This document shows positions 645 through 6,371 of a DNA stretch of 24,704 nucleotides, one piece after another; positions within the stretch are counted from its first letter, which is position 1, and every line of letters starts with the position of its first letter. The DNA lies in IMG/VR virus record IMGVR_UViG_3300021185_000744, positions 1 to 24,704 of that record, one strand, 5' to 3'. The position numbers were made by a program, and so were the translations under genes. The notes below the pieces were generated by a model. It did no database searches. It saw only the letters and a program-made list of their open reading frames with translations, and was not told the DNA's origin. The stretch is from a virus.

Positions 645-673
645 AATATACACGATTTAAGACCATTTGTCAA
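645..673 (-). promoter_or_regulatory. Early sigma70-type promoter
   Basis: TTGACA at 668-673, a 17-base spacer and TATATT at 645-650. It reads into the gene at 422-610. Its upstream side is the T-tract of the terminator at 674-702 instead of the A-rich element seen at most other promoters here. Confidence 0.8.
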
Positions 674-702
674 GGAAAAAAAGGGACGCTGTTGGCGTCC
701 CC
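674..702 (-). terminator. Rho-independent terminator after pqqA
   Basis: On the minus strand a seven-base-pair stem GGGACGC / GCGTCCC with a five-base loop is followed directly by seven T. It lies 28 bases after the stop of the PqqA-like gene, ends that transcript, and abuts the -35 box of the next promoter. Confidence 0.9.
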
Positions 703-729: not shown

Positions 730-801
730 TTATCTATTCATAACATACATCGTTACTTCGAAACCAAATCTCATCTCTGTTGCTGTTGGTGTTGTCCACA
801 T
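730..801 (-). CDS. pqqA: PqqA-like PQQ precursor peptide, 23 aa
   Basis: A 23-codon ORF that begins MWTTP and contains RFGFEVTMY. In the PQQ pathway, PqqA is a ribosomally made peptide of about 23 residues whose Glu and Tyr are joined by the radical SAM enzyme PqqE with the chaperone PqqD, then processed to pyrroloquinoline quinone. The proteobacterial type (for example Klebsiella) has the same length, an MW start, Pro5, Arg11, Gly13 and Glu15-Val-Thr-x-Tyr19; all of these align here without a gap. AGGAGA sits six bases before the ATG, and a strong terminator follows. No pqqB, C, D or E is visible, so the peptide would need host enzymes. It ends the unit DUF1127, small membrane protein, pqqA that starts from the late promoter at 1409-1416; a weak private promoter is possible. 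Identity is strong from sequence; function in infection is inference. Confidence 0.87.
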   Translation of the reverse strand: MWTTPTATEMRFGFEVTMYVMNR

Positions 802-820
802 AAAATATCTCCTAATAAAA

Positions 821-838
821 TATAGCGAAATTGCTATA
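821..838 (-). other. Hairpin in the pqqA leader
   Basis: Inverted repeat TATAGC, six-base loop, GCTATA, followed on the minus strand by TTTTATT and then the pqqA RBS. It could be a weak terminator for the preceding gene, a 5' stabilising stem, or a control element for pqqA translation. The sequence alone does not decide. Confidence 0.4.
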
Positions 839-843
839 CTAAT

Positions 844-872
844 ATCTTATATGGATACCCTATCAAAAGCAA
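844..872 (-). promoter_or_regulatory. Possible weak promoter for pqqA
   Basis: TTGCTT at 867-872, a 17-base spacer and TAAGAT at 844-849. It lacks the exact TTGACA and A-rich upstream element of the other early promoters, so it is weak or accidental. If used, the transcript would begin at the leader hairpin. Confidence 0.3.
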
Positions 873-884
873 TAGAGAAAATCA

Positions 885-1073
885 TTAATCTTTTCTAAGC
901 ATCAACTCTTTTGCTTCTTTGTGATATCCTAAACGAGATAGTTCTGCCGCCGCTCTTGCACGACCTGCGCTTTCGCCAAATGCCCATACACCCATTGCAA
1001 ATGCTAATACATATGTGCCAAAGGTTTTTACAATCTTAGGTGCTTCTACTGGTGTGTTTCCTACGACTTCCAT
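885..1073 (-). CDS. Small single-pass membrane protein, 62 aa
   Basis: The chosen start is the ATG at 1071-1073, which overlaps the stop of the DUF1127 gene as TAATG and has AGGGGTGG just upstream; a GTG nine bases earlier is possible but less likely. The protein has one hydrophobic segment (YVLAFAMGVWAFGESAG, about residues 20-36) followed by a charged tail with AELSRLGYHKEAKELMLRK. No family is recognised. Its coupling to DUF1127 and its place just before pqqA suggest all three are made together late in infection. The role is unknown. Confidence 0.7.
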   Translation of the reverse strand: MEVVGNTPVEAPKIVKTFGTYVLAFAMGVWAFGESAGRARAAAELSRLGYHKEAKELMLRKD

Positions 1074-1303
1074 TATATCCACCCCTTCAAGTTAGGGTTA
1101 GATGAAGTCTCAACACTTGAGTTTGCGATATATTTGATATCACAACGGGAGATACCCATGTCATTCAATTCTCTGTCATTAAGTTTAGACAGTTCATTGA
1201 TTGTAATTCTGACATTGCGATTATGTTCCATTTTCTTGCGGATATTTTTAACCCAGCCCGCAACGTCTGGGAAGCCGAACTCGACCCCTGTTAATGTAGC
1301 CAT
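1073..1303 (-). CDS. DUF1127-domain protein, 76 aa
   Basis: The C-terminal half carries the DUF1127 signature: residues about 36-60 read NELSKLNDRELNDMGISR followed by an acidic residue and Ile, matching the LxxLSDxxLxDIGI(S/T)R pattern of this bacterial family. DUF1127 proteins are small and common in alphaproteobacteria, and some have been linked to RNA turnover or phosphate and carbon metabolism. The N-terminal part (ATLTGVEFGFPDVAGW) is extra. The ATG has GAAGGGAT upstream. It is the first gene after the late promoter at 1409-1416 and is coupled by TAATG to the next gene. Confidence 0.8.
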   Translation of the reverse strand: MATLTGVEFGFPDVAGWVKNIRKKMEHNRNVRITINELSKLNDRELNDMGISRCDIKYIANSSVETSSNPNLKGWI

Positions 1304-4919: not shown

Positions 4920-5183
4920 TTATCCTCTAGTTTCTTTTACATGTTTATTAAATTCAGCAAAGCCACCAATCAATTGACGGTTGCCATGCTCATCTTCACC
5001 TACAATCATAGGCATTGTACGCCCATGACCATAATATTGAATTGCTTCAAGTAGTGCATCACGCTCAATGTCACGCCCAAGTTTTATGATTGTGTGTTGC
5101 AAATCATCGCTTTCAGCCAGTTGTTTTGCTCTGTCACAAAAAGAACAGGCATCCTTTGAGTATATCGTGTAGTGCATTATCAT
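4920..5183 (-). CDS. nrdC: Glutaredoxin
   Basis: An 87-residue thioredoxin-fold protein with the redox pair Cys13-Ser-Phe-Cys16 at the start of the first helix, the cis-proline segment TMPMIV (Pro58) and the glutathione-binding GG in LIGGF (73-74). Phage glutaredoxins reduce ribonucleotide reductase; this phage carries nrdA and nrdB at 13641-17084, so the three would work together although they are in different operons. The start overlaps the TGA of the glycine-zipper gene as ATGA, showing translational coupling; a second ATG two codons later is possible. Confidence 0.93.
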   Translation of the reverse strand: MIMHYTIYSKDACSFCDRAKQLAESDDLQHTIIKLGRDIERDALLEAIQYYGHGRTMPMIVGEDEHGNRQLIGGFAEFNKHVKETRG

Positions 5184-5704
5184 TTCTTTACACTATGGGT
5201 TGTCTGCGTCTGAATAGTCACATATGAACCTGGGTCTTTATGATACTTTGTAGTATAGACTGCACCATTAAAACGATACTTCACACGATAACCAGTGACC
5301 ACTTGAACCTCACGATATTGTGGTACATCTTGACAAACTGTTGTAGTTGTCGGGCGACTTGGTTGATTTGTATTTGCACCAATGTTCGAACCAATGATTG
5401 CACCAAGTGCAGTTGCCGCATCTTTACCTTTACCGCCACCAAACTGATTACCAACTACACCACCAATAATCGCACCAAACAATGCATCGCCATTGCCTTT
5501 AAGTGCTTGCCCTGCGCCGTTGAACACACCATTGTTGTTCTGACTTTGGGTTTGATATTGCGTACATTCTTGTACATTACCAATAAACTCAGACTGTTGA
5601 GCATAGATTGGTGTCTTGTTGATAATGGGCACCTGTACTGTTTCTGCCAATGCCGCTGTCGATAGAACTGTCGCACCGAGTGCGATTGCTATTGTCTTAT
5701 ACAT
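5180..5704 (-). CDS. Secreted glycine-zipper protein (17 kDa antigen-like), 174 aa
   Basis: The start is placed at the ATG at 5702-5704, which has AAGGAGA seven bases upstream; an earlier in-frame start is less likely. Residues 1-20 are a signal peptide with a predicted signal peptidase I cut after ALA20; there is no lipobox cysteine. Residues about 63-112 form a glycine-zipper repeat (GALFGAIIGGVVGNQFGGGK, then GAIIGSNIGAN), typical of Rickettsia 17 kDa and SlyB-like envelope proteins. The C-terminal part is beta-rich (YREVQVVTGYRVKYRF). It should act in the periplasm or outer membrane, perhaps altering the envelope during infection (inference). It is coupled to glutaredoxin. Confidence 0.85.
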   Translation of the reverse strand: MYKTIAIALGATVLSTAALAETVQVPIINKTPIYAQQSEFIGNVQECTQYQTQSQNNNGVFNGAGQALKGNGDALFGAIIGGVVGNQFGGGKGKDAATALGAIIGSNIGANTNQPSRPTTTTVCQDVPQYREVQVVTGYRVKYRFNGAVYTTKYHKDPGSYVTIQTQTTHSVKK

Positions 5705-6371
5705 TTTCTGTCTCCTTTTGACCAATTATTTCCTTAATTACTACACGGTTGAATTGAGTTTCTTTTCCACCATGCCACTCTGATACGATGTGGCGCTTTG
5801 GTGTCGCTTTCATAACAAAGCAATCATCTACTGAAATTTTAAATTTAGTCTGTGAAAAGAACGAACCGATGTTACCGTCACGGGTGACCACTTTATATAT
5901 GTATGAACCAAAGCGTTCTACAAATTTCTTTTCAGTCAATTTGACAAAAAACTCATCACGTTTACGCACAACCCCAAACCACTCAGAACCTGACGAAGCC
6001 TCTGCCTGAGCATCAGCCGCCTTCGCCCGTTGTTGCGATATTGTTCGTTGGTTGGGGAGTGTTACTAGAAAAGCGACTTGGGCGAGAGAAATGGCACCCT
6101 TCTCAAGCATCTGCCTGATAGTGTGACCGAAGTCACCACGAAGGTTGCCAGTTTCTTTTGCCCATTCTATGAGTTCAGCCGCTTCGGGGAACCGATGTTG
6201 TAGCATCTCAGATATTTCATCGGTAGGGTAGCGAAGAAGAAATTCTTGTACCCGACTGGCAGTTGATGGTGTGTTTACGTCTGCATCTTTCTTAGATACA
6301 AAGCCGTCTTGCTCAATACATACGATTGAAGCAGTAACAACATCAAGAATACCAAACTTTTCTGTTTTCAT
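5697..6371 (-). CDS. Hypothetical protein, 224 aa
   Basis: A soluble 224-residue protein. The N-terminal half is helical (FLLRYPTDEISEMLQHRFPE, then GHTIRQMLEKGAISLAQVAF). A short low-complexity linker rich in Ala and Ser (about 118-128) leads to a beta-rich C-terminal half (EWFGVVRKRDEFFVKLTEKK). No family is recognised. It is the first gene of the operon from the promoter at 6404-6432 and overlaps the start of the glycine-zipper gene by eight bases. Confidence 0.8.
   Translation of the reverse strand: MKTEKFGILDVVTASIVCIEQDGFVSKKDADVNTPSTASRVQEFLLRYPTDEISEMLQHRFPEAAELIEWAKETGNLRGDFGHTIRQMLEKGAISLAQVAFLVTLPNQRTISQQRAKAADAQAEASSGSEWFGVVRKRDEFFVKLTEKKFVERFGSYIYKVVTRDGNIGSFFSQTKFKISVDDCFVMKATPKRHIVSEWHGGKETQFNRVVIKEIIGQKETENV

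Follow-up and report, generated by a model that had tools for sequence, protein, structure and literature searches.

The stretch of DNA analysed here (the window), a 24,704-bp virus record from IMG/VR that represents a 24.7-kb fragment without host label, carries an ORF of 23 codons which, judged by its sequence, is a genuine, phage-owned pqqA gene. Its product (Table 1) is very probably a functional substrate peptide that would sustain the supply of PQQ, and hence methanol dehydrogenase, during infection. We also think it fairly probable that a minimal pqqA cassette, consisting of a ribosome site and a 72-bp ORF, is near-universal in phages of obligate methylotrophs, has been passed between unrelated phage families and is confined to that host guild.

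Table 1. The pqqA gene of the window and its candidate expression signals.
Feature	Position	Strand	Basis
pqqA, 23 codons + stop (ATG 801-799, stop codon TAA 732-730), PQQ precursor peptide MWTTPTATEMRFGFEVTMYVMNR	730..801	-	above curated TIGR02107 and PF08042 cut-offs
Shine-Dalgarno AGGAG, 7 nt before ATG	809..813	-	read from sequence
5' leader stem-loop TATAGC-AATTTC-GCTATA	821..838	-	leader hairpin scan
Candidate promoter element TATAAGATA, T4-late-like, weak	843..851	-	sole exact match in window
Intrinsic terminator, GGGACGC stem then T7	682..702	-	stem-loop + T-run
Sigma-70-like promoter TTGACA-17-TATATT of next gene	645..673	-	directly behind terminator; conserved in L305

Profile searches were done with the translated ORF. 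The peptide scored 37.6 bits against TIGR02107 (cut-off 20) and 38.5 bits against PF08042 (cut-off 21.1), and the search with PF08042 gave no match in any of 14 control genomes; PHROGs gave no match for PqqA. The first-pass annotation had called this ORF PqqA-like, a call that both curated models bear out. The residues that it had named are all present (M1, W2, P5, R11, G13, E15, V16, T17 and Y19), and the ribosome-binding site and terminator that it had assigned to the ORF were located on either side of it. Beyond its score, the peptide has the Glu-x-x-x-Tyr motif of PqqA (TIGR02107/PF08042) and is encoded by a short free-standing ORF with a ribosome site, PqqA being expected as a free-standing ORF of about 22-39 aa with such a site. 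A DNA pattern for the PqqA motif matched once in the window and never in 100 shuffles. The same annotation had seen no other pqq gene, and our search of the window likewise found no PqqE over the cut-off. PqqC had no match in the window, which is a weak negative, as the model matched nowhere, controls included. Compared with bacterial PqqA of the Methylophilaceae type (e.g., MWTTPAATEMRFGFEVTMYVMNK), the window peptide agrees in length, in W2, P5, R11, G13 and E15-V-T-x-Y19, and in its ribosome site. It differs in that the gene stands alone on a phage, without pqqBCDE, and in that the exact peptide (with T6 and R23) is absent among the 83 host copies compared.

The T4-like gene content of the window, together with the presence of pqqA in cultured phages, places the gene in a phage genome and not in host contamination. 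Besides a gp61-type primase, NrdA, NrdB, an exonuclease and a RuvC-like resolvase, the window encodes a ClpP-like protease, a 2OG-Fe(II) oxygenase, tRNA-Arg and tRNA-Pro. Its primase is less than 60% identical to that of any phage in the collection, and Synechococcus T4-like phages gave the best coverage. The nearest relatives according to exonuclease identity are the contigs L304 (93%) and L305 (82%). Both have pqqA at the same place; the gene is whole in L305 and stops at the contig end, after MWTKP, in L304. The window also holds a gene for a DUF1127 small protein (1073-1303, minus strand; PF06568, 37.7 bits), two genes upstream of pqqA and of a type that is usually bacterial, and a gene for a predicted exported glycine-zipper protein (5180-5725, minus strand; PF05433) with a weak match to PRK11280 (60.5 bits, below the cut-off of 99).

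In the lineage of the window, pqqA seems to have been kept as a small transcription unit of its own, given its constant place in L304 and L305, the preservation of the terminator stem via G-U pairs and the leader hairpins found in all three. In this comparison, made by eye on three sequences, the leader hairpin of L304 (TATAGT-AATTTT-ACTATA) shows a paired change relative to the window, and that of L305 reads GTTGC-ATAAA-GCAAC. The terminator stem of L305 (GGGGTGC/GCGTCCC, also compared by eye) is kept through two G-U pairs. The sigma-70-like promoter of the next gene marks pqqA off as a separate unit. At the place of the candidate promoter, L304 has TATAAAATA and L305 has TATAAGATA; one-mismatch matches to the latter occur at chance frequency, and it was rejected as a firm promoter motif and kept as a candidate only. 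The RNA fold of leader, ORF and terminator is unusually stable (z -6.65), but the folded stretch takes in the presumed promoter, and this value is therefore not used as evidence. An SD-like site precedes the gene in all 167 phage records checked (167/167). A terminator follows within 120 nt in 55 of 163 phage pqqA genes, against 1 of 163 random positions, and 62 of 163 have a leader that can form a hairpin of 6 bp or more, against 59 of 652 leaders of other SD-led ORFs. According to these counts, many pqqA phages have an own transcription unit for the gene.

To assess the distribution of pqqA among named phages, the window peptide was compared by tblastn with 50,697 phage records. Matches were obtained in 12 records: P19250A, Venkman, MEP301, MEP401, MEP402, Melnitz (four records), Manatee Spring podovirus and Acinetobacter phage MD-2021a (two records). 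PqqA queries of the Klebsiella type and of the Methylococcales type retrieved the identical set from the same 50,697 records. Since three diverged queries give the same set, the restriction to methylophages is not a query bias. The collection has many phages of other genera that make PQQ (Klebsiella, Acinetobacter), and these lack pqqA. Acinetobacter phage MD-2021a was rejected as phage evidence: one of its two records was opened (L008, CAKLQF020000010.1) and found to be bacterial, as it carries pqqB, pqqC, pqqD, a radical SAM gene and ppk; apparently, a piece of a bacterial chromosome was entered as a phage. None of the phage records inspected has a pqqA annotation. The gene is unannotated in the records of P19250A, Venkman, MEP301 and MEP402, and it is overlain by an opposite-strand hypothetical ORF in those of Melnitz and Manatee Spring podovirus. 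Phage pqqA has been overlooked because the ORF is below the size limits of usual gene finders. The taxonomy names further methylophages (MEP431-434, HIM624-A, phiMB624-A and Venkman EXVC038S), and our statements do not extend to all cultured methylophages.

The cultured carriers are spread over different families: based on record taxonomy and PMC10580990, MEP401 and MEP402 belong to the Zobellviridae, Melnitz belongs to the Kyanoviridae, and others are placed elsewhere. This lineage assignment is based on named isolates, single-linkage by neighbouring genes having lumped most records into one group. A comparison of large proteins in the available stretches (6 kb in the case of Melnitz) found no proteins in common between MEP301, MEP402, Melnitz and the window. 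Venkman and Manatee Spring podovirus (L004:2988-3072 and L003:2107-2190) share 85 bp at 90.6% DNA identity, which is exactly the pqqA cassette, and nothing beyond this cassette is common to them in the 6-kb stretch searched. This seems a clear example of a peptide-sized gene that has moved between two phages otherwise unlike each other. Outside pqqA, a tail structural gene of MEP301 (MW452941.1, 11360-11715) and MEP401 (OP830906.1, 36013-36367) contains a 355-bp stretch that is 89% identical between the two, which suggests exchange between these phages of different lineages.

DNA identity was further profiled along pqqA in phages without homologous neighbours. It amounted to 0.7-1.0 from ATG to stop, the ribosome site gave about 0.53, and the sequence outside gave mostly 0.25-0.35. 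High identity is confined to the span between about -12 and the stop codon and falls to background level on either flank; the inside value is partly imposed by the search pattern, the drop at the edges is not. As identity drops at the cassette edges, the conserved unit is the ribosome site plus the ORF, which is presumably mobile. Exchange with hosts is ongoing, since seven phage pqqA genes show no difference from a host copy (69/69 nt) and further ones reach 65-68. At the peptide level, 68 of 167 phage sequences are identical to a host peptide. For the pqqA of the window itself, the best host match is 59/69 nt and the best phage match, in L305, is 62/69.

Uncultured viruses were covered by searching IMG/VR with a DNA pattern encoding W-x-x-P-...-G-x-E-V-T-x-Y. 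At least 120 contigs contained it, against 9 for a control pattern shifted by one base. The matches listed (at least 120) are all free-standing ATG ORFs of 23-25 aa, and ORF lengths in the 167 phage records cover the same range. R11 and F14, neither of which is required by the pattern, are present in 167/167 of these records. With residues 15 and 19 left free in the pattern, Glu15 and Tyr19 were present in 126/126 viral-locus matches. A failure of these two residues to be conserved in related phages had been named beforehand, in the first-pass annotation, as grounds for abandoning its proposal; the outcome was complete conservation.

Regarding the hosts, peptides of the form x-A-T-E-M-R-F-G-F-E-V-T-M-Y-V-[MC]-N-[KR] were found in genomes of Methylotenera, Methylophilus, Methylobacillus, Methylopumilus and OM43 and in proteobacterial MAGs, and the other PQQ bacteria in the same comparison deviate at positions 7-10 or 20-21. 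Based on this peptide type, the host of the window probably belongs to the Methylophilaceae. Of 150 Methylophilaceae genomes, 149 contain pqqA, mostly as several copies at scattered places. This agrees with the literature, in which genomes of this family have 3-12 pqqA copies but usually only one pqqBCDE (PMC4109929; see also PMC9851590). PqqE scored over the cut-off in 7 of the 8 Methylophilaceae genomes tested, the eighth being a single-cell genome. In some Methylophagaceae genomes (Methylophaga and relatives; L149, L182, L217 and L222), pqqA occurs as two or three closely spaced copies, so the multiplication of pqqA is not confined to Methylophilaceae.

PqqA is the sole component of the PQQ pathway that is consumed one-for-one per PQQ, the enzymes being catalytic. 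A phage would therefore need nothing but pqqA to prolong PQQ synthesis. It fits this need for pqqA alone that no PqqE over the cut-off was found in 51 pqqA-bearing phage records; PqqC also had no match in phage records, which is uninformative, as the model matched nowhere, controls included. PQQ comes from the Glu and Tyr of PqqA, and in Acinetobacter an E->D or Y->F change abolishes its synthesis; PqqA output is about 20-fold above that of PqqC/PqqE (PMC2294125). PqqA binds PqqD through its leader, while PqqE receives the C-terminal part (PMC10906245). We propose that the phage would transcribe pqqA during infection as a short monocistronic mRNA, with the leader hairpin at its 5' end and the terminator at its 3' end. 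Following the chemistry of the family, host PqqD and PqqE would take up the peptide and join Glu15 and Tyr19 by a cross-link, and a host protease, PqqB and PqqC would convert the cross-linked peptide to PQQ. Peptide supplied by the phage would by itself keep PQQ production up if transcription in the host breaks down or more PQQ is needed. PQQ would then load the PQQ-dependent methanol dehydrogenase, providing energy and carbon to the obligate methylotroph and thereby supporting phage replication. Since the hosts already hold several pqqA genes, the extra phage copy must act via timing or dose, not presence. PqqA is not always limiting: in Acetobacter, overexpression of pqqAB raised PQQ by 29%, against about eightfold for the whole operon (PMC7936290).

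The 72-kb pqqA phage L385 (IMGVR_UViG_3300025120_009955) encodes a PQQ methanol/ethanol dehydrogenase (TIGR03075, 608 bits), which adjoins a full-length formate dehydrogenase alpha subunit (TIGR01591, 885 bits; L385:13989-18783, i.e., 33989-38783 of the record). This phage may encode both the first step of methanol oxidation and the last. Methanol dehydrogenase is the most likely sink of the PQQ, as L385 carries one and so does the pqqA phage reported from Lake Baikal (PMC7678222). A PQQ methanol dehydrogenase was found in only 1 of 50 pqqA phages, many of these being fragments; as most show none, the demand for PQQ must stem from a host enzyme. The peptide could instead be a functional PqqA whose PQQ is used elsewhere, through export to neighbours, as an antioxidant or by another quinoprotein. 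PQQ is a free, secretable cofactor, and the low count of phage-borne dehydrogenases would agree with such a use, which we nevertheless hold to be unlikely, as pqqA is restricted to phages of obligate methylotrophs and absent from the abundant Klebsiella and Acinetobacter phages of the collection.

The first-pass annotation had offered two roles, a boost of PQQ supply and a decoy for PqqD/PqqE. The distribution of the gene, its selection and the biology of the hosts argue for the former. As a decoy or inhibitor, the phage peptide would occupy host PqqD/PqqE and lower PQQ, e.g., slowing the host or blocking rival phages. It would indeed bind PqqD/PqqE like any PqqA, as expected from the family and from the binding of the leader to PqqD (PMC10906245). 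However, a decoy would be expected to lose E15 and Y19, since changes at these residues abolish PQQ synthesis (PMC2294125), whereas both are kept in 126/126 matches without being required. Together with the many phage peptides identical to host copies (68/167) and the phage that combines pqqA with its own PQQ methanol dehydrogenase, this makes the decoy role very unlikely.

The phage PqqA peptide is under purifying selection, and changes are mostly synonymous. Across 109 distinct sequences, pN/pS was 0.27 on codons unconstrained by the search pattern; over all pqqA codons it was 0.17-0.19. The other frames of the same strand gave ratios above 1.6, and one reverse-strand frame gave 0.35, presumably owing to third positions in common. 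An attachment-site fragment was ruled out, as the whole ORF and ribosome site are kept and synonymous sites are free to vary, and so was a function of the RNA only, as the variation tracks codon positions. The seven phage copies with 69/69 nt to a host copy, and the others with 65-68, could also be read as a neutral passenger, i.e., a host gene acquired recently and repeatedly with no benefit to the phage; the selection seen in these 109 sequences, the position conserved between the window and L304/L305 and the occurrence of pqqA in several unrelated lineages make this more improbable still. Finally, an ORF that arose by chance, or a viral contig contaminated with bacterial DNA, conceivable for 23 codons on a metagenomic contig, is refuted by the cultured, sequenced phages with pqqA, the shuffle (0 in 100) and frame-shift (9 against at least 120) controls and the phage genes in the rest of the window (NrdA/B, gp61-type primase, exonuclease, RuvC-like resolvase).

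The novelty implied by the first-pass annotation was too high, as a pqqA gene was reported in 2020 in the Baikal methylophage population VP_266, a T4-like phage of Methylophilaceae (PMC7678222). Like the window, VP_266 is a T4-like phage with pqqA, and its gene was proposed as an auxiliary metabolic gene; unlike the contig studied here, it also encodes methanol dehydrogenase. The accessible part of that report deals with one population, without analysis of conservation, distribution or selection (PMC7678222). Virus-encoded pqqA, pqqE and pqqD were described in reservoir sediment viromes (PMC13188868, 2026). There too pqqA is counted among viral auxiliary metabolic genes, but the accessible part of the report reads it in terms of phosphate solubilisation, not methanol oxidation, and contains no peptide-level analysis. 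We found no earlier report in open-access PMC, and therefore regard as new, the unannotated pqqA in cultured methylophages and its restriction to them among annotated phages, the purifying selection under which the cross-link residues have stayed unchanged, and the minimal ribosome-site-plus-ORF cassette common to unrelated phages. A known phage auxiliary gene that renews a short-lived component of host metabolism is cyanophage psbA. The two are alike in that the phage brings just the component needing renewal in infection. They differ in that psbA encodes a reaction-centre protein, whereas phage PqqA would be the consumed peptide substrate of a cofactor pathway.

If the cassette is indeed near-universal in phages of obligate methylotrophs, the consumed peptide would be what limits PQQ during infection, and pqqA would be a direct sequence marker for methylotroph-infecting viruses, cheap to use for assigning viral contigs to methylotroph hosts. 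To our knowledge, it would also be the smallest widespread auxiliary metabolic gene. The gene offers a testable answer to the question of which PQQ component runs out in the infected cell, and it cautions that genes of peptide size escape surveys of auxiliary metabolic genes. Supply of PqqA seems to be a widespread means by which these viruses keep the methanol metabolism of the infected cell going. In surface waters, aquatic methylotrophs of the OM43 and LD28 groups play an important part in the oxidation of methanol and other one-carbon compounds. If the PQQ precursor is regularly provided by their viruses, infection would directly aid the first step of methanol oxidation.
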